Positions 13,398-25,638 of a DNA stretch of 64,000 nt are shown in pieces. The notes under the pieces were generated by a model. The model did not search any database. It was given only the letters and a program-made list of their open reading frames with translations, and had not been told where the DNA came from. Position numbers and translations under genes: made by a program. Position 1 is the stretch's first letter. The number at the start of each line of letters is the position of its first letter. This stretch comes from Pseudomonadota bacterium (GTDB lineage Bacteria; Desulfobacterota; Desulfobulbia; Desulfobulbales; SURF-16), in NCBI GenBank assembly GCA_018897105.1, contig JAHILF010000005.1:1-64000 (forward strand). The letters run 5' to 3'.

Positions 13398-14150
13398 ATG
13401 AAAATACACTTTTTAGGGGTTGGCGAAGCCTGTGATGAACGCTGTCCCAATACATCGCTTCATGTGACAGCGGGAAAGGGGCAGCGGTTCCTGCTGGATT
13501 GCGGTTTTACCACCCCCCATCTCTATTTTGCCCTGAGCAGCGATCAGGACGAACTGGACGCGGTCTGGATTTCTCACTTTCATGGTGATCATTTTTTCGG
13601 TATGCCACTGTTGCTTCTCAGATTCTGGGAAATGGGCCGGAGAAAAAAGCTGGTTATCGCCGGGCAGCAGGGCACCCGGGAAAAAATTACGTCGGCCATG
13701 GAGCTTGCCTACCCGGGCTTTCTGCCGCGGCTCAGGTACCACCTTGATTTTGTGGAAATAGAACCGGGGCAGGTCCGGGAGATTGCCGGCACGATCTGGA
13801 GTACAGCGGAAAACATCCATTCCCAGCGTTGTCTGTCCTTATGTATCGCTGACAGCTCGCACCGGATTTTTTACAGCGGGGATGGCCGGCCGACCAGGGA
13901 GACGGAAACCCTGGCTGCAGGATGTGATTTGATCGTCCACGAAGCCTTCAGGCTGGAGGGGGAAGTGGAAAACCACGGCAATATCATGAACTGTCTGGAA
14001 TTTGCCGGCCGCGCCGGGGGGAAACATCTTGCCCTGGTACATGTGGAGCGAACCTGCAGAGAAACCGCCAAGATAAAAGTTGCCGGGCTGGAACGTAGCA
14101 GCGGGCCCCATGTTTTTCTGCCGGAACCGGGTGATATGTTTGTGTTATGA
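13398..14150 (+). CDS. MBL-fold hydrolase (RNase Z-like)
   Basis: HFHGDHFFG metal motif, YSGDGRPT, HEAF. Confidence 0.8.
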   Translation: MKIHFLGVGEACDERCPNTSLHVTAGKGQRFLLDCGFTTPHLYFALSSDQDELDAVWISHFHGDHFFGMPLLLLRFWEMGRRKKLVIAGQQGTREKITSAMELAYPGFLPRLRYHLDFVEIEPGQVREIAGTIWSTAENIHSQRCLSLCIADSSHRIFYSGDGRPTRETETLAAGCDLIVHEAFRLEGEVENHGNIMNCLEFAGRAGGKHLALVHVERTCRETAKIKVAGLERSSGPHVFLPEPGDMFVL

Positions 14151-16390: not shown

Positions 16391-16530
16391 TGTAGGGGCA
16401 CCCCTTGTGGGTGCCCTGGGAGCGGGCTACCCGTTGTGTGTCACTGTCCAGGCAGTTCGAGTTCGGGTACTGCATGATGGCCTATTCGGTACCCCCCTGG
16501 GATAGGGCACCCACAAGGGGTGCCCCTACA
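16391..16530. repeat. Inverted repeat with perfect 27-bp arms
   Basis: TGTAGGGGCACCCCTTGTGGGTGCCCT (16391-16417) vs AGGGCACCCACAAGGGGTGCCCCTACA (16504-16530). Confidence 0.85.
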
Positions 16531-16696
16531 TCCCCATCCGCTTTCTTCCTTTTTTTTTCTCTTTCCTGCCATCCCATAGCAGTTTTATCTTGCAAATTCT
16601 TTGATTGCGGGGTTTTTTCTGAGCAATCATTCATTTTCAGGGAGGTTGCCATTCTCCCTGTTTCCCGCTAAACAGCCAACCCGGAAAGAGAATCGG

Positions 16697-19621
16697 ATGA
16701 GTACTGCCAGGCCCACGGTGTTCATCAGTTACAGCCACCTGGATGAGGAGTGGAAAAATCAGCTTCTCCCGCATCTCAAGGCCTTTGAGCAGCAGGGTGA
16801 TCTGCTGCTCTGGCATGACCGCAGGATCGACACCGGCGCGGACTGGTATCCTGAGATCCAACAGGCGGTGGAGGGGGCTCGGGTGGCGGTCTGCCTCATC
16901 ACCAAAAATTTCCTGGCCTCGGATTTTATTACCAAGGAGGAGGTGCCGGCCCTGCTCAAACGGCGGGAGGCAGAAGACCTGACCATCCTGCCCCTGCTGG
17001 TCTCACCCTGCACCTGGCAGCGTATTCGCTGGCTCAAGGGCATCCAGATGTTTCCCCCGGACAACAAGTGTCTTGCCGCCATAAAAGATGAAACAGAGTG
17101 TGAGCAACTGCTCGTGGATTTTGCGGTCAAGGTTGTGGATCGGGCATTGGCAACGGGCCAGAATCATGAGGTTTCCGTTTTTGAAAATCTGCTGGGTAAC
17201 GACGTTTCGGAAGGGGTGACGGACCGGGCGCTGCCGGGCCTCTTGGGTAAGGATGTTCACGCTTACCAGGATCTCTTGGTCAACATTGACTTTTCGGCAG
17301 AACCACCCAGCCAATCGAGTTTCCCTACCTCGCTCTTAGAATTATTGCTGCCTCCAGTGGAGATCTCCCGTCTGCCCGTGACCGGGGCTGAACTCTTTGG
17401 CCGGGAGGCGGAATTGGAATTGCTGGACAGCGTCTGGGAGCAGGGCAAAAGTAATGTCGTCTGTTTTGTGGCCTGGGGCGGGGTGGGCAAATCCACCCTG
17501 ATCAACAAATGGCTGACGGAGATGGCTGCGGACAGCTATCGCGGTGCTGCCAATGTCTTTGGCTGGTCTTTTTACAGCCAAGGAACCGGCGAACGGGTCA
17601 CCTCGGCGGACCGCTTCATTGCCGATGCCTTGGCCTGGTTCGGCGACCCGGATCCTATGACCGGCTCTCCCTGGGACAAGGGCCAGCGGCTGGCAGGCCT
17701 CATCAAGCAGCAGCGGACGCTGCTGGTGCTTGACGGCCTGGAGCCACTGCAGGCCGAGCATGATTTTGACAAGGGCCGCATCAAGGACCCCGGCCTGGCG
17801 GCCCTGGTTGCGGAACTGGCCAGGAATAATCCCGGCCTCTGCCTCATCACCAGCCGGGAAGAGGTGGCCGATCTCCGTCGTTTCCCGCAAACTGTTCAGG
17901 CACGAAACCTGGAGCAGATTTCCGCCGCAGCGGGCCGGGCTCTGCTGCGGGTTGGCGGGGTGCAGGGCAAGGACCTGGAGCTGGAGGAGGCTTCGAGAGA
18001 ATTCGGCAACCATGCCCTGGCCGTTAAGCTCCTGGCCGCCTATCTCCATGAGATCCCCGGCCACCATATCAAAGAGGCGGCCGACATCCCTGACCTGGAA
18101 ATCCCCGAGGAGCATGGTCGCCAACCCCGGCGGGTCATGGCTGCCCTGGTCGGTCTTTTAGGGGATTCACCGGAGGTCGAGTACCTGCGGATTCTTGGCC
18201 TCTTTGACCGCCCGGCGGACAAAGAGGCCCTGGCCGCGCTGCTCACCCCGCCTGCCATCCCGGATCTCACCGGTCGCATCATGGCCGTTAAGGAGGAAGA
18301 CCGCCATGAATGCCTCACTCGCCTACGGCGCCTGGGTCTCCTTGCCCCGGCAAGCAGCCAACGACCCGGTGATCTGGACTGCCACCCCCTGGTGCGGGAG
18401 CATTTTTGTGACCTTCTTCGGGAGCAATTCCCCGCAGCCTGGCAGCAGGGCAACCTACGACTCTATGAGTATTATAAAAGTGTTGCCAAGGAATACCCGG
18501 AAACCATCGAGGAGATGACCCCTCTCTTTTACGCCTGCGCCCATGGTTGCCGGGCTGGTCGCCAGCAGGAGGCGTTAGATAAGGTTTATTGGAAACGAAT
18601 TAGTAGAAAGCAGGAAGCTTACATTAATCATAAACTCGGCGCTTTAGGCTCTGATTTGGCTGCCCTTGCTAATTTTTTTGAGTTACTGTGGGAACGGCCC
18701 ATTGCGGGGCTAACCGAGAAGGGTTGGTTTTTTCTCTTAGGTTGTGCAGGTTTCAACCTTCGAGCCTTAGGCCAGCTGAGCGAGGCCTCTAGGCCAATGG
18801 AAGCTAGTCTGGATGCTGCTGTGGTAGGGAAAGACTGGGAAAACGCCGCCATAGCTGCCGCCAACCTTAGCGAACTCTGTCTTGCATTAGGCAAGGTGGA
18901 CCAGGCTATGAAGTATGGGGAGCGATCGGTGGAATTGGCCGACTGGAGCGGTGATGTTTTCCAGCGCTTGGCCAGACGCACCACCCATGCATCTTCCCTC
19001 CATCAGGCTGGCCAATTAGCTGTGGCAGAGGAATTATTCCACCAAGCTGAGGCCATACATCGGGAACGCCAACCCCTGTATCCCTTTCTCAACTCCATGC
19101 CAGGCTTCTTATACTGCGACCTACTTCTCAATCTACATAAGCCGACCGAGGCTTTGGAACGAGCTGAGAAAGCATTGGGGGAGAGCAAAACGCATGGAGT
19201 CCTTCGTGATATCGGCCTGGATTACCTCACCCTAGGTCGAGCTTGCTTTTGGCTGGGTGATTCAGATACTGCTGCCACTCACCTGGACCGTGCTATGGAC
19301 TTCCTGCGCAAGGCAAATGAACAGGAGTTGCTGGTTCGCGGCCTCCTAGCCCAGGCCGCCTTCTGGCGGGAGCAAGGGCAGTTCCATGCCGCCCGCCGGG
19401 ACTTGGATGAGGTTCTGGAGATCGTCGAGCGGTGCGGCATGCGGCTCTTCCTCACCGACTATCATCTGGAAAGCTGCCGCCTGCTGCTGGCTGAAAACGA
19501 CCTGCCCTCCGCCCGCGGTCACCTGGGCCTGGCCAAAAAACTGGTCGAGGAAACCGGCTACCACCGTCGTGACCGGGAGGTAGAGGAACTTGAAAAGCTG
19601 TTGGCCGATGTCAAACGATGA
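16697..19621 (+). CDS. TIR-STAND (NB-ARC-like)-TPR protein
   Basis: TIR: PTVFISYSHLDEEW...LITKNFLASDFITKEEVPALL; NB-ARC: GREAELELLD, AWGGVGKSTLINKWL (Walker A), TLLVLDGLEPL (Walker B), LCLITSREEV, GNHALAVKLL; C-terminal TPR-like helices. Start ATG 16697 after GGAAAGAG. Confidence 0.9.
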   Translation: MSTARPTVFISYSHLDEEWKNQLLPHLKAFEQQGDLLLWHDRRIDTGADWYPEIQQAVEGARVAVCLITKNFLASDFITKEEVPALLKRREAEDLTILPLLVSPCTWQRIRWLKGIQMFPPDNKCLAAIKDETECEQLLVDFAVKVVDRALATGQNHEVSVFENLLGNDVSEGVTDRALPGLLGKDVHAYQDLLVNIDFSAEPPSQSSFPTSLLELLLPPVEISRLPVTGAELFGREAELELLDSVWEQGKSNVVCFVAWGGVGKSTLINKWLTEMAADSYRGAANVFGWSFYSQGTGERVTSADRFIADALAWFGDPDPMTGSPWDKGQRLAGLIKQQRTLLVLDGLEPLQAEHDFDKGRIKDPGLAALVAELARNNPGLCLITSREEVADLRRFPQTVQARNLEQISAAAGRALLRVGGVQGKDLELEEASREFGNHALAVKLLAAYLHEIPGHHIKEAADIPDLEIPEEHGRQPRRVMAALVGLLGDSPEVEYLRILGLFDRPADKEALAALLTPPAIPDLTGRIMAVKEEDRHECLTRLRRLGLLAPASSQRPGDLDCHPLVREHFCDLLREQFPAAWQQGNLRLYEYYKSVAKEYPETIEEMTPLFYACAHGCRAGRQQEALDKVYWKRISRKQEAYINHKLGALGSDLAALANFFELLWERPIAGLTEKGWFFLLGCAGFNLRALGQLSEASRPMEASLDAAVVGKDWENAAIAAANLSELCLALGKVDQAMKYGERSVELADWSGDVFQRLARRTTHASSLHQAGQLAVAEELFHQAEAIHRERQPLYPFLNSMPGFLYCDLLLNLHKPTEALERAEKALGESKTHGVLRDIGLDYLTLGRACFWLGDSDTAATHLDRAMDFLRKANEQELLVRGLLAQAAFWREQGQFHAARRDLDEVLEIVERCGMRLFLTDYHLESCRLLLAENDLPSARGHLGLAKKLVEETGYHRRDREVEELEKLLADVKR

Positions 19622-19693
19622 AATCAGTCGTTATTTGACGAAGACAATACGAGAATATCCCATCATCACACCCCAAGTATGGAGGATCCGGAA

Positions 19694-22600
19694 ATGATCA
19701 AGCTCATCGTTGAAGGCAAACCGCATGACACCACAACAACAATTCCTGATGATCTGCGGGATCTTCTGGTCGGCGAGCGCTGCGAGCTGGTTGATTTTGA
19801 CCTCGATACCAGAAGTCGCGGTGTGGAAGAGGCTCCACCTCCAATTGAAATCAAGGCCAATGAAGACGACCTGTTGGAACTGGAGCTGGAGGGCGGTGCA
19901 CGGATCTGGATGAGCGTGGCTGAATACCGTGACCACATCGCCGCCCGCTCAATGCGCGGCCCGCAGGAAAAGGGGACGGTCCGGATCAATGCCAGCCTGC
20001 CGCAAATGACCGAGGAGCGCGGGATCTTGCAGTGGGTTGTCAAGAGGCTGCGTTTCCTGGGTTTTGATGTGGCCGAGGGTGCGGCCGAAAAACTGGCCGA
20101 ACGGATCGACACCAGAAAAGGCCTGGAGGGACTCTATAGCTGTTCCATCGACAAGGAGAAACTGGAGCTGTACGAGCACCCGGACTTTCCGAGCGGGGCT
20201 GATCCGTTCCTGGTCTTTATCCACGGCACCATGTCCAGCACGGAAGGCAGTTTCGGCGGATTGTGGAGCGAGCAGCCCCAGGTACGCCGGCGGCTGGCCG
20301 AACATTATGACGGCCGGACCTACGCCTTTGAGCATAAGACCTTTTCCGAAAGCCCCATTGTCAACGCCCTGGCCTTGGCCAAGGCCCTGCCTGACGGAGC
20401 GCGCCTTCACTTGGTGAGCCACTCCCGGGGGGGCATGATCGGCGAACTCCTGTGCCGAGGCGGCAGGTTATTGACAGATGGGGCCACAGCGCTCTTTGAT
20501 GATACTGACTTTAAACTGTTCAAGGCCGCTGACCAGGCCGTGCCGCGTAGCGCCCTGCGGGAACTGGAGGCGGTGCTGCGGCAGAAACGGTTTACCGTTG
20601 AACGGTTCGTGCGGGTGGCCTGCCCGGCCCGGGGCACAACCCTGGCGTCAAAGCGGCTTGACCGCTATCTCTCACTGTTGAACCTGGGGCTCTCATCCCT
20701 GGACAAGAGCGGTTGGGCAGGGGATATCTTGTGGCTGGTGGGGGCAATTATCAAAGAACGCACCGACCCCCGCGTCATGCCGGGTCTGGAGGCGATGATG
20801 CCCGAGTCCACCACTGTCAAACTGTTGAACCGGTCCGATGTGACGGTTACCGGAGCGCTGCGGGTCATTGCCGGAGATTACGACGGCGGCAGCATACTCG
20901 GCTGGGTGGCCAATTGGGCAACGGAAGGATTTTTCGGCTCCGAGAACGACACGGTGATCAACACCCCGTCCATGTATGGCGGCGCTCTCCGGCAGGAAAA
21001 CCTTGGCTGGTATTACTTTGCCCAGGGCAGTAATGTTTGGCATTTCAGCTATTTCAGAGAGCAGATCACAGCTGGACTTCTGGCCGACGGTCTGCTCCAG
21101 GATGGGACGGAGAGGGCCGGGTTCCTGCCCATCTCTCAGGCCCCGCATCGGCACGACCCCATCGGCCGGGGCGTTGCTCTGGATTTCGCCGTTGAAGGGT
21201 GGGGCGCTCCCCTGGGGTGCAAAGCACCGTCAGCCAACGGCAGAAAACCGCTTGTGCTTCTGGTGCCGGGGATCATGGGGAGTCACCTGCAGGTCGCGGA
21301 CAGGAGGGTCTGGCTGGATTTTCTGGCCATTGCCCGCGGCAAATTGAAAGAACTCGACATTGATGCGTCGGGGGTGACCACGGACGGCGCCATGAAGCTG
21401 TCCTATGGAGACTTTGGTTCCTTTCTCTCAGCAAAAAATGAGGTCATTTACTTCCCCTATGACTGGCGGCGGCCGCTACGGGAACAGGGTACGGAATTTG
21501 CCCGTTTCATGGGCCAGGTGCTCGACGCGGCAGCGGCAAACGGCAGGCCTGTGCGAATCGTGGCCCACTCCATGGGTGGACTCCTGGTGCGCATGGCAGC
21601 GGTTCTCTCCAATCCCGAGCGGAACGGCAACCGCTGGTGGGAACGTTTCAGCGCGGCCGGCACAACCAACCGACTGGTCATGGCCGGTACACCCAATAAA
21701 GGCTCGTGGACCGTGCCCTACGCTCTCACTGGACGTGATTCCATTGTCAAGGTGCTGGCCGCCGTGGATTTGAGTCATGATAGAGAGGAGATCCTGCGAT
21801 GTATTTCCGGCTTTACCGGATTTCTGGAGATGCTTCCAGACGACGGGGATGGCCACTGCTTCGACATTGATAGCTGGGAGAAGTGGCAGAAGGCGGACGG
21901 GGAGGAATGGCCCCTTCCCGATGCCGCTTTACTCGCTGCCTGCCGTGAAAACCGCAGGCTTCTTGACCGATTTGATTTTACCGGAGATGCCGGAATAATC
22001 CGTTACGTAGCCGGCTGTGAGGATGAAACTCCGTCCGGGGTCCGGATCGTTAACGCGAAGGGCAGGAATGAACTCATTTTTGACCGCTCCACTAAGGGGG
22101 ACGGCCGGGTCCTCTGGGCCACGGGTATCCCTAAAGGAATCAAGACATGGTACGTGAATGCCGCCCACGGCGATATTTTGAACCAGGAAGATGCCTTCAA
22201 TGGCCTGTCTGAGATCATCGAATACGGTGAGACCAGCCTGCTGCCCACTGAACCGCCGGCCCGGCGTGCGCTTGCGGCTGGGGAAGAGATTATGGTTGAC
22301 CGGGGGTTGCCGATGTATCCGGATCAGAACATGCTTATCCGTGCCGCTTTGGGGGGGAGGATTCTTCCACCCAGGGATCGGAGGACCGAGAAATTTCCTG
22401 CATTCAAGGTCGTGGTCTGCCATGGGGATTTACTGGCAGCTAGGAATCCGGTGGCTGTTGGGCATTATTTCGGTGATACCATCAACGGCAGCGAGGCGGT
22501 CCTGGACCGGCGGCTCGACGGGCTGCTCACCCGGCGTTATCAACTCGGAATTTATACCGGTGCCGAGGGGAGCGTCAATGTCTTTGTTCATACGGAAAAC

Positions 22601-25123
22601 AAGAAAAAATATACCGCCATCATTATCGGTTTGGGTCAGGTCGGCGAGCTGACCCAAGCCCGACTTGCCAACTGCTTTGCCAGGGCGATCCTGGAATTTG
22701 CCACCTCGCCTGCTGTAGATGCCATTGGGCCACAGGGGGTTGAACTTTCCATCAGCACCCTGCTCATCGGCAGCGGTTCAGGCTGGGGTCTCGGGGTTCA
22801 GGAAAGCGTTCGTGGCTTGGTTGACGGTGCCCGGCGCGCCAATATGAAACTTGCAGAATTGGACGGCGCACCGATTCGGCTGCGTGAGTTGGAACTCCTT
22901 GAGATTTTTGAGGATAGAGCGCTCATCGCCCTGCGCGCTGTTCGCAGCCTTGCCACCCTCGGGGGGCTCGCAGGGGTCGAGTACGAGGCCTCCCTGCGCT
23001 GTGGAACCGGCGGACTTCAGCGGGCGGTCTGCGAGGATGGCGGCGACTGGTGGCAGCGACTCAAGGTGGAGATGAATGACAAGGACGAGTTGAAGTTTAC
23101 CTCCCTGACCGGCCTGGCCCGCATCGAGGAAAGGGGGCAGCCTACCCAGCTGGCCCTGGTGGATCGTCTGGTGAAGAATGCCGTAACCAATTCGTCGATC
23201 TCAACCCGGGAGATGAACGCCATTTACAACCTTTTGTTCCCCAACTCATTGAAAATGAGTGCCCCGGACCAGGGCGATCTGCTGCTGATGCTCGACCCCA
23301 AAACCGCAGGTTATCCATGGGAGATGATGTATGTCGGAGAAGGGACGCAGAAGGAGCCCCTGGCCTTACGGGCCGGTTTGATCCGGCAGCTCAGTCTGCC
23401 TGAATTCCGGGAACGGCCGGTGTACAGCTCACGGCAACATGCCCTGGTCATTGCCGATCCAGACCTGAAGTCAAGCAAATTTCCCGAGCTTTCCGGCGCC
23501 CTGCAGGAAGGGAAAGCGGTGGTCAGGATTCTTGAGCAGAAGGGATTTCAGGTGGAAAGGCAGTTGCAAAGCGACCCGCTTTCGATTGCCGGCGCCCTTT
23601 TCGCCGGCGACTACCGTATTCTCCATCTGGCCGGACACGGGGTTTTTGAGTATCCTATTACCAGTAAAGGCAGGGATGGCACCAGCAGAACCAGCCTTGT
23701 CACCGGCATGGTTCTGGAATGGCCGACAAATGCAGAAACCGAAAAGGATGATGCCCGGCAGGACCCGGTCCTGTTGACCGCCGTGGAAGTTCGTCAGATG
23801 ATCGCCGTGCCGGAGTTGGTCTTTATCAACTGCTGTTTTCTGGGCCAGATGGAGGGCCTTGACAAGTGGTTTGCCAAACGGCATCTCTTTGCCGCCAGCC
23901 TTGCTGCTAAATTTATCAGCATGGGGGTGCGAGCCGTGGTGGCCGCTGGCTGGGCAGTGAACGACAGCGCAGCCGAAATATTCGCCACTTCCTTTTACAA
24001 TGCCATGTTCGATGGTCACACCTTTGGCGATGCGGTTCGCGCCGCCCGTTGCAAGGCCCATGAGCAGGTGGGGAGTTGCAATACCTGGGCCGCATACCAG
24101 TGTTATGGCGATCCTGGTTTTCGTTTCCGGGAGAACCATGCGGCACGTCCGAGAAAGTTTTTCCTTGCCCCCCGAGAGGTGGTGTGCGAGTTGCGCGCCT
24201 TGGGCGAGAAGAAAAGGGATGCGCGGGGCAACCGGCTGAGCTCCGCTGACCTGACACGAGATCTGGAGCAGCTTGAACGTCTTATTCCACATGAATGGAT
24301 GATACAAAATGGCGAGATCCGGGCCGCCCTAGCCGCTGTTTATGCCGAATTGGGAGATAACGACCGGGCCATCGAACACTACGAGGCCGCTGAGATATGC
24401 CGGGACGGCGGCTGTACGGTTCGAGATCTGAACCAGTTGTCCAACCTGCGGGTCCGGCGGGCGCAAGATTATCCGCCTGAGCAGGCGGATAAGGAAATAC
24501 TTAGGGAGATAGAAATTCTCACCAGAAGGGCGGGCGAATTGGGTGAGACCCCCGATATCTGCACCATAACCGGCAGTGCGGTAAAGCGGCTGTTGCTGAA
24601 GGTGGCCGACAAGAAACCGACAAAGAAGAAAGAACTGGCGGACCTCATCCGTTTGATGGAGGAATGGTATGAGAAGGCAGTGAAAAGTGACGGTGAATTG
24701 GATCCCTATGCCGCCATGAACTCAATCTGTGCCGCCATCATCGAGGAGTGCTGGGCGGTATCGCCATCGCCTAACCAGGAAAAATTGGCAAAGATCCGCA
24801 ACCTCCTTGATCAAGCGACTATGGCCGGGCAGCGCCTGGAAGAAAAGGACCCGCGTTTCTGGAACGGGGTTCATGCCATCGACGCCGATCTCTACCGTTT
24901 TATTCTGACCCGGATGAAGGGAGGATTGGAGATCGATGGTGTTCCGGATACAAAGGAATTAAATGAGCGGTATAACAATCTGGCGGACAAATACGGTACC
25001 CCCCGGAAGATGGGTTCGGTTGCGGATCAGATCAAATTTGTCGCTCGTTTCCTGCCGGAGAAGGAGATGAAAGAGGTTAAGCACGACCTTGAGAAATTGG
25101 CAGAAAATTTGAGAAAGGGATAG
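19694..25123 (+). CDS. Giant alpha/beta-hydrolase (two elbows) - CHAT protease protein
   Basis: FVFIHGTMSS, HLVSHSRGGM, VLLVPGIMGSHL, RIVAHSMGGLL; CHAT region with ILHLAGHGVFEY (His) and ELVFINCCFLGQ (Cys); start ATG 19694 after GGAGG (ORF extends to 19679). Confidence 0.88.
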   Translation: MIKLIVEGKPHDTTTTIPDDLRDLLVGERCELVDFDLDTRSRGVEEAPPPIEIKANEDDLLELELEGGARIWMSVAEYRDHIAARSMRGPQEKGTVRINASLPQMTEERGILQWVVKRLRFLGFDVAEGAAEKLAERIDTRKGLEGLYSCSIDKEKLELYEHPDFPSGADPFLVFIHGTMSSTEGSFGGLWSEQPQVRRRLAEHYDGRTYAFEHKTFSESPIVNALALAKALPDGARLHLVSHSRGGMIGELLCRGGRLLTDGATALFDDTDFKLFKAADQAVPRSALRELEAVLRQKRFTVERFVRVACPARGTTLASKRLDRYLSLLNLGLSSLDKSGWAGDILWLVGAIIKERTDPRVMPGLEAMMPESTTVKLLNRSDVTVTGALRVIAGDYDGGSILGWVANWATEGFFGSENDTVINTPSMYGGALRQENLGWYYFAQGSNVWHFSYFREQITAGLLADGLLQDGTERAGFLPISQAPHRHDPIGRGVALDFAVEGWGAPLGCKAPSANGRKPLVLLVPGIMGSHLQVADRRVWLDFLAIARGKLKELDIDASGVTTDGAMKLSYGDFGSFLSAKNEVIYFPYDWRRPLREQGTEFARFMGQVLDAAAANGRPVRIVAHSMGGLLVRMAAVLSNPERNGNRWWERFSAAGTTNRLVMAGTPNKGSWTVPYALTGRDSIVKVLAAVDLSHDREEILRCISGFTGFLEMLPDDGDGHCFDIDSWEKWQKADGEEWPLPDAALLAACRENRRLLDRFDFTGDAGIIRYVAGCEDETPSGVRIVNAKGRNELIFDRSTKGDGRVLWATGIPKGIKTWYVNAAHGDILNQEDAFNGLSEIIEYGETSLLPTEPPARRALAAGEEIMVDRGLPMYPDQNMLIRAALGGRILPPRDRRTEKFPAFKVVVCHGDLLAARNPVAVGHYFGDTINGSEAVLDRRLDGLLTRRYQLGIYTGAEGSVNVFVHTENKKKYTAIIIGLGQVGELTQARLANCFARAILEFATSPAVDAIGPQGVELSISTLLIGSGSGWGLGVQESVRGLVDGARRANMKLAELDGAPIRLRELELLEIFEDRALIALRAVRSLATLGGLAGVEYEASLRCGTGGLQRAVCEDGGDWWQRLKVEMNDKDELKFTSLTGLARIEERGQPTQLALVDRLVKNAVTNSSISTREMNAIYNLLFPNSLKMSAPDQGDLLLMLDPKTAGYPWEMMYVGEGTQKEPLALRAGLIRQLSLPEFRERPVYSSRQHALVIADPDLKSSKFPELSGALQEGKAVVRILEQKGFQVERQLQSDPLSIAGALFAGDYRILHLAGHGVFEYPITSKGRDGTSRTSLVTGMVLEWPTNAETEKDDARQDPVLLTAVEVRQMIAVPELVFINCCFLGQMEGLDKWFAKRHLFAASLAAKFISMGVRAVVAAGWAVNDSAAEIFATSFYNAMFDGHTFGDAVRAARCKAHEQVGSCNTWAAYQCYGDPGFRFRENHAARPRKFFLAPREVVCELRALGEKKRDARGNRLSSADLTRDLEQLERLIPHEWMIQNGEIRAALAAVYAELGDNDRAIEHYEAAEICRDGGCTVRDLNQLSNLRVRRAQDYPPEQADKEILREIEILTRRAGELGETPDICTITGSAVKRLLLKVADKKPTKKKELADLIRLMEEWYEKAVKSDGELDPYAAMNSICAAIIEECWAVSPSPNQEKLAKIRNLLDQATMAGQRLEEKDPRFWNGVHAIDADLYRFILTRMKGGLEIDGVPDTKELNERYNNLADKYGTPRKMGSVADQIKFVARFLPEKEMKEVKHDLEKLAENLRKG

Positions 25124-25222
25124 AAAGGAGGTCTGTTTTTTTATACTCTTTATCAGGCCAAGTCATTGTCTGGTAAAAAGATTGCCGCGAAATCCGGATT
25201 TTTTGAGCAAAAAGGAGAGACC

Positions 25223-25540
25223 ATGAGCACGCCTGTGAAAAAGATCGATACCCCTTTCGGGGAGTATGCGCCGCGGGTTGCCAGCCACGACGAACTGGAG
25301 CGCGCGGCAGCGGTCATGGGGGACGCGGTGGAGGCAATCGCCCGGGTCAACCATGACAGGTGGGCGGCGGAGAGGATTTTCCAGGGGTGGCGCTACGGGG
25401 AAGAGCGGGATGATGCCCGGAAGCTGCATCCGGATCTCGTCCCGTATGAGCTCCTCTCCGAGGCGGAAAAACGAATCGACGTGGAGGGCGCCAAAGCGAT
25501 CATTGCCGAACTGATCAGGCTTGGAATTCTTCGGCAATGA
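25223..25540 (+). CDS. RyR domain-containing small protein
   Basis: IARVNHDRWAAERIFQGWRYGEERDDARKLHPDLVPYELLSEAEKRIDVEGAKAIIAELIRLG matches the RyR repeat pattern (W..R...GW.YG..RDD..K.HP.LVPY..L...EK..D); SD AAAGGAGA upstream of ATG 25223. Confidence 0.88.
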   Translation: MSTPVKKIDTPFGEYAPRVASHDELERAAAVMGDAVEAIARVNHDRWAAERIFQGWRYGEERDDARKLHPDLVPYELLSEAEKRIDVEGAKAIIAELIRLGILRQ

Positions 25541-25561
25541 TTGCTTGAACAGAATAGACAT

Positions 25562-25597
25562 AAAAAGGGAACTGACTGTCCGGTCAGTTCCCTTTTT
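25562..25597. terminator. Bidirectional intrinsic terminator closing the TIR/CHAT/RyR module
   Basis: AAAAAGGGAACTGACtgtccGGTCAGTTCCCTTTTT hairpin with A/T tracts between convergent genes. Confidence 0.85.
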
Positions 25598-25638
25598 ATG
25601 TTATGGCCAGGTTGGCGGAAATCAGGGAATCTCAGATT

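Follow-up and report, generated by a model that had tools for sequence, protein, structure and literature searches.

A candidate modular TIR-STAND, CHAT/lipase and RyR operon in a Desulfobulbales bacterium, compared with known NAD-signaled defense systems

Closest described systems and the three-gene operon

In the type IV Thoeris system (Rousset et al. 2025, as presented in PMC12847820), a TIR product, N7-cyclic ADP-ribose (N7-cADPR), activates a caspase-like protease. We describe here three genes within the first 64,000 nucleotides of contig JAHILF010000005.1 (the window) from a bacterium of the order Desulfobulbales. So far as the published outline of type IV Thoeris goes, the locus shares with it i) an operon that combines genes for a TIR protein and a caspase-superfamily protease, ii) a predicted nucleotide signal, and iii) cell death or arrest as the predicted outcome; it differs in that the TIR domain is carried by a STAND-TPR protein (gene 1), the CHAT domain belongs to an 1814-residue protein together with two hydrolases and a TPR-S domain (gene 2), and an RyR-domain protein has been added (gene 3). 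We put the probability at roughly 0.68 that these genes make up one modular abortive-infection operon, driven by a signal derived from nicotinamide adenine dinucleotide (NAD), with a CHAT/lipase effector and an RyR protein as signal binder.

As to Thoeris in general, a TIR gene and a separate effector gene lie in tandem, and sensing of the TIR product by the effector is predicted. The ThsB model matches only the TIR domain, genes 2 and 3 match none of the Thoeris models in PADLOC, and neither a known ThsA effector (SLOG-SIR2 or TM-macro) nor any PADLOC system was called for the operon. Because no Thoeris effector model matches, we do not file the operon as Thoeris; by analogy, the best reading is that it works like a TIR-signaled protease system with a modular connection from TIR to CHAT. 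It also resembles the TPR-S systems that Burroughs and Aravind (2020) reportedly described, which have a TPR-S scaffold in the effector and a linked TIR or other NADase gene: the TPR-S profile PF20308 exceeds its cut-off in gene 2, and an NAD-consuming gene (TIR) is adjacent.

Four further comparisons help to place the locus. VMAP/MoxR-vWA ternary systems always pair a caspase-superfamily protease with an alpha/beta-hydrolase, and TIR and STAND parts recur in them (PMC7159879); all these parts are found here, but the hydrolases are fused to the protease, and a Pfam scan of the operon and its neighbors found neither a MoxR ATPase nor a vWA protein. The DUF4062 proteins (Swarozyc) are TIR-like NADases active in phage defense (PMC13174449), and in another family a DUF4062 gene precedes a related phosphoesterase, CHAT/TPR-S, and RyR unit, whereas the same slot in the window holds the TIR-STAND protein. 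RyDEP, a phage anti-Thoeris protein (PMC13232231), is like gene 3 a small stand-alone member of the RyR Pfam family, and the two proteins space their four ligand residues identically, but gene 3 lies within a bacterial TIR operon and is not phage-encoded. As for SAVED-CHAT/CBASS, gene 2 reaches an E value of 0.017 against SAVED_CHAT and has no SAVED domain.

No PADLOC v2 or NCBIfam model covers the operon, and to that extent the original prediction was right to call the trio undescribed, although TPR-S systems and TIR-to-caspase signaling are already published ideas. The component pieces are known individually; what appears to be new is a double-lipase-CHAT-TPR-S effector wired to a TIR-STAND protein, a host RyR partner, and a clean exchange of effectors. 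If our reading is true, a lipase-releasing CHAT protease joins the effectors driven by TIR signals, and bacteria own an RyR-domain protein central to cyclic ADP-ribose signaling.

The three genes lie in tandem on the forward strand (16697-25540), separated by 57 and 99 bp, and open reading frame (ORF) calls and Pfam agree with their earlier placement. Gene 1 (16697-19621, 974 residues) starts at an ATG at 16697 within a TTG-start frame that extends back to 16601. It carries a TIR_2 domain (16718-17050, Pfam 1.5e-14) with a candidate catalytic glutamate, E81 or E82; a STAND NTPase core (17390-17941) recognizable by a Walker A motif (GGVGKST, residue 261), a Walker B-like motif (LVLDGLE, residue 343), and matches to NACHT (2e-5) and AAA_16 (3e-4) that both fall below cut-off; and a Pfam-supported TPR array (18743-19612), presumed to recognize the trigger. 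The TIR, STAND, and TPR assignments of the original prediction thus hold, but its likeness to NB-ARC (0.02) gives way to better NACHT and AAA_16 matches. By its domains gene 1 is a candidate invader sensor and generator of an NAD+-derived signal.

Gene 2 (19679-25123, forward strand) was delineated by ORF call, Pfam, and alignment of homologs, and encodes two hydrolases followed by M17_N-like, CHAT, and TPR-S domains, in that order; the two lipase-like hydrolases and CHAT had been predicted, the M17_N-like and TPR-S domains overlooked. Hydrolase 1 (20186-21223, nucleophile Ser249; Pfam DUF7379/alpha-beta hydrolase, 1.7e-30) is lipase-like, its profile matching solved thermostable bacterial lipases at E about 5e-4. 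Hydrolase 2 (21224-22318, Ser631/Asp808/His830; Pfam LCAT, 1.5e-6) has group XV phospholipase A2 and LCAT as its nearest profile matches (8e-8). The CHAT caspase-like protease domain (23210-24112, 2.1e-29) has a His1320/Cys1386 dyad, and the TPR-S domain (24362-24724), a predicted sensor of NAD-derived signals, scores 2.4e-6 and 28.5 bits against a cut-off of 27.6 (5.4e-7 in the genome search). CHAT and the two hydrolases retain all their catalytic residues: Ser249, the candidate hydrolase 1 Asp and His, Asp808, His830, His1320, and Cys1386 are invariant in 10 full-length homologs, and Ser631 is kept in 9 of the 10.

Between hydrolase 2 and CHAT, the Peptidase_M17_N-like domain (22457-22705) passes the Pfam cut-off at 4e-5, and its only profile match in the PDB is the N-terminus of a cytosol aminopeptidase (3.4e-4). 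Peptidase_M17_N domains fold much like macro domains, a shape that would be well suited to binding ADP-ribose, which makes the gene 2 domain a candidate nucleotide or ADP-ribose-binding module; for gene 2 itself the fold is suggested by the Pfam and profile matches, as a single-sequence model has a predicted local distance difference test score (pLDDT) of 44, making a fold search on it meaningless. Gene 3 (25223-25540, forward strand) encodes the 105-residue RyR protein originally predicted (Pfam PF02026, 8.7e-19).

Effector exchange and the partners of gene 2

In the closest relative, a sister species of the same genus (locus L010, JAHIVT010000059.1), the operon sits between the same genes, whose DNA is about 92% identical, but its middle differs. 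Identity is 86% over the upstream DNA and gene 1 as far as 19607, and 92% over RyR and the downstream DNA from 25210 onward (at the amino acid level, 77% for gene 1 and 84% for RyR). Between these breakpoints, which fall at gene boundaries, there is no similarity: 5.6 kb in the window (19608-25209) is replaced by 3.5 kb in L010 (6486-9996) encoding an unrelated calcineurin-like phosphoesterase (497 residues) and a CHAT protein that matches TPR-S weakly. Genes 76-80% identical to this cassette are found in three genomes of another family (G090, G104, and G577), again followed by RyR; the preceding DUF4062 gene is intact in G577, split into two frames in G104, and a remnant in G090. The phosphoesterase and CHAT pair is also present on Methylobacterium and Paraburkholderia plasmids. 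The operon site is empty in one congener, and another retains only the 3′ half of RyR. The exchange in L010 is a natural experiment, with constant sensor and RyR and two unrelated effectors, in which signal production, sensing, and RyR function are separable.

Near-full-length homologs of gene 2 occur in G495 (55% identical), G144, G431, and G170, in a second copy within the same genome (contig C52), and on plasmids of Azotobacter, Ensifer, Paracoccus, and Burkholderia. In G144 a TIR domain is fused to the C-terminus. In G495, which has the closest homolog, a TIR gene lies 80 bp away with further TIR genes beyond, and a DUF4365-STAND-TPR protein shares 46% identity with gene 1 over the STAND-TPR part of the latter. 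The Ensifer plasmid carries, in order on one strand, SIR2, STAND-WD40, a periplasmic-binding-protein-like gene, the gene 2 homolog, and RyR, while in Rhizobium leguminosarum a shorter, hydrolase-less form of gene 2 is flanked on both sides by TIR-STAND-WD40 proteins. The genes around RyR might be sorted into two slots: a sensor-NADase slot filled by TIR-STAND, DUF4062, TIR-TPR, or SIR2, and an effector slot filled by double lipase-CHAT, phosphoesterase plus CHAT, patatin, or cyclase.

The original prediction of a closed three-gene system therefore needs qualification: the genes form a unit, but a modular one whose middle is exchanged in L010 and whose gene 2 homologs often lack RyR. Likewise, a check for co-occurrence did not recover the exact trio elsewhere among the genomes searched, but did recover SIR2-STAND-gene 2-RyR in Ensifer and gene 1 with RyR in L010.

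Several loci deserve separate mention. At L023 (contig C52 of the same genome, 7529-18836) the second gene 2-type protein (1870 residues) lacks the nucleophile serine of hydrolase 2 and is accompanied by a TIR ORF and a TPR-S protein whose N-terminus resembles nucleotide-processing domains; a third locus in this genome (L092, contig C105:1054-4656) has TPR-S and TIR within 3 kb. At L110 (3275-9578) and L112 (4013-11040) gene 2 homologs directly adjoin clostripain-family (C11) protease genes, which suggests a two-protease variant. No gene 2 homolog was found in phage records, and a scan of viral contigs with the hydrolase 1 profile returned no relatives.

The RyR protein, a possible mechanism, and its rivals

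The RyR domain also occurs in animal ryanodine receptors, and phage proteins that carry it have recently been shown to cut or sequester cyclic ADP-ribose signals. In phage RyDEP, 3′cADPR is bound by H75, W78, H100, and D117, and the H75/D117 dyad cleaves it; most RyDEP relatives tested bind without cleaving, and phage RyR domains more generally bind or cleave 2′/3′cADPR as lone sponges or glycosidases (PMC13232231). The four RyDEP residues correspond to His44, Trp47, His69, and Asp86 of gene 3 with identical spacing (+3, +25, +42). All six intact stand-alone RyR proteins of the order, and likewise the TPR-S fusions described below, retain His44, Trp47, and Asp86; the exceptions among the ligand residues are the Ensifer protein without the Asp and the sister species with Gln at position 69. 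The RyR sequence alone cannot tell a sponge, an enzyme, and a receptor apart.

RyR is linked to TPR-S in several ways: i) RyR genes of the gene 3 family adjoin TPR-S genes in 6 genomes of the order; ii) in a phylum sample of 396 genomes, RyR is found in 16, a strong TPR-S match in 13, and both in 4 (odds ratio 13.7, p about 0.001); iii) RyR and TPR-S are joined in one polypeptide in three of these four genomes (G289, G331, and G374) and also in G584, three of the four fusions having a cyclase-like C-terminus, and those of G289 and G374 precede a TIR-TPR gene; and iv) in G029, RyR comes after a TPR-S/patatin gene, and 1.3 kb beyond it lies a TIR-TPR gene. TPR-S is in turn linked to TIR, which lies within 10 kb of 11 of the 17 strong TPR-S matches, whereas the frequency of TIR predicts about 1.4% per site; some of the 17 share a locus, which makes the binomial probability come out too small, but the enrichment of TIR is beyond question. 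RyR also occurs outside this context, since the genome-wide search of the phylum sample turned up RyR domains with no strong TPR-S match in their vicinity. Weaker RyR homologs, less than 60% identical to gene 3, are carried by 61 phage records; a scan of viral contigs with the RyR profile found no relatives.

The fusions lie at L078 (2362-4674), L079 (7389-9710), L080 (370-2658), and L076 (250-2445), and the RyR-TPR-S-cyclase forms could possibly be relays that convert an ADP-ribose signal into a cyclic-nucleotide signal. On a Priestia plasmid (L061, NZ_CP128553, 1599-9808) an RyR gene adjoins a nucleotide cyclase gene, a Pycsar-effector-like gene, and a TIR gene.

These comparisons (TPR-S in gene 2, the TIR fusion, the 11 of 17 TIR linkage, and phage RyR chemistry) lend good support to the NAD-signal hypothesis of the original prediction, and the operon might work as follows. 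The TPRs of gene 1 would sense the invader, and ATP-dependent STAND assembly, by analogy with the family, would activate TIR. With its catalytic glutamate present, TIR would convert NAD+ to an ADP-ribose-derived signal, probably a cyclic ADP-ribose isomer. This signal would be read by the TPR-S domain of gene 2, a domain that Burroughs and Aravind reportedly predicted in 2020 to sense NAD-derived signals, possibly together with the M17_N-like domain, and would switch on CHAT. CHAT would then cut gene 2 itself and/or cell proteins, freeing the two lipase/phospholipase-like hydrolases, and the resulting membrane damage would kill or arrest the cell before phage production. The RyR protein would bind the same signal as gene 2.

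We slightly favor RyR as a built-in buffer or off-switch, a putative sponge or glycosidase that would be the host counterpart of phage RyDEP, over RyR as a co-receptor, because RyR is kept while the signal-generating and effector genes around it are exchanged; and since the same RyR stands beside unrelated effectors and NADases, it probably acts through a small molecule. The co-receptor alternative, in which RyR passes bound signal to the TPR-S scaffold, is a serious competitor whose chances we would place somewhat below even: four genomes of several families encode fusions in which RyR precedes TPR-S and a cyclase-like domain, and RyR adjoins TPR-S effectors of differing kinds, but one RyR family next to two unrelated TPR-S effectors at a single locus does not suggest a tight protein interface, and phage RyR proteins work alone (PMC13232231). 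More broadly, and a shade more tentatively still, bacterial RyR may serve TPR-S/NADase immunity in general as a host-encoded module for handling cyclic ADP-ribose signals, whether by buffering them, by hydrolyzing them as an off-switch, or by acting as their co-receptor, and would stay constant while the sensor-NADase and effector slots are exchanged, in which case phage RyDEP would be a captured host module.

We wish to be plain about what weighs against a single NAD-signaled operon. Among the genomes searched the exact trio is found only here, and no classical defense island surrounds it in this genome; gene 2 homologs in G431 and G170 are partnered instead by a clostripain-type protease, and no TIR or RyR is named near those of Azotobacter, Paracoccus, and Burkholderia, so that gene 2 can perhaps work without TIR. 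Because the partners of its homologs vary in this way, gene 2 would be best regarded as an independent effector, wired often but not always to TIR or another NADase.

Such homologs also bear on a second alternative, in which TIR is itself the toxic effector, depleting NAD+, and gene 2 a second, independent weapon in the operon. Plain NAD+-depleting TIR effectors are known in bacteria (PMC12847820), and several full-length gene 2 homologs have no TIR named nearby; yet TIR is fused to or adjoins TPR-S effectors at most loci, and the conserved RyR domain, a cyclic ADP-ribose binder in relatives, points to signaling, so we consider depletion improbable. Less probable again is a stress or developmental regulator, a protease cascade with no role in phage defense. 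AfsR/MalT-type regulators do resemble the STAND-TPR part of gene 1 over the TPRs, and ordinary chromosomal genes flank the locus, but no DNA-binding domain was seen, one congener has nothing at the locus and a second has it in decayed form, effectors are swapped, and homologs reside on plasmids, one of them adjoining restriction-modification genes. A chance neighborhood of separately acquired horizontal genes, to which the single occurrence of the trio and the often solitary gene 2 homologs might appeal, is already disfavored and very improbable given the tight co-directional spacing, the exchange of the middle alone in the sister species, where both outer genes are retained, and the SIR2-STAND-gene 2-RyR order in Ensifer.

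Borders and surroundings of the operon

A hairpin terminator with a perfect 19-bp stem (25558-25601) lies between the operon and the convergent gene, as originally claimed, and a Pfam scan upholds the claim that the neighbors on both sides are unrelated: these are a Bax1-I-type membrane protein, an AI-2E transporter, a 310-residue protein, and a response regulator. A perfect 27-bp inverted repeat (16391-16530, arms 16391-16417 and 16504-16530) does precede gene 1, but does not belong to the unit as had been supposed. Its core, TAGGGGCACCCCTTGTGGGTGCCC, recurs in 21 half-sites genome-wide (2 or fewer mismatches), mostly as facing pairs, and because of this dispersal we judge it a repetitive extragenic palindromic (REP)- or miniature inverted-repeat transposable element (MITE)-like element outside the system; a role as regulatory element or mobile-element end was dismissed for the same reason. 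The operon's surroundings gave no direct evidence of mobile-element ends. Further upstream, a metallo-beta-lactamase-fold protein (13398-14150) weakly matches the anti-Pycsar protein Apyc1 (1.2e-5, below cut-off) and is probably an ordinary chromosomal hydrolase.

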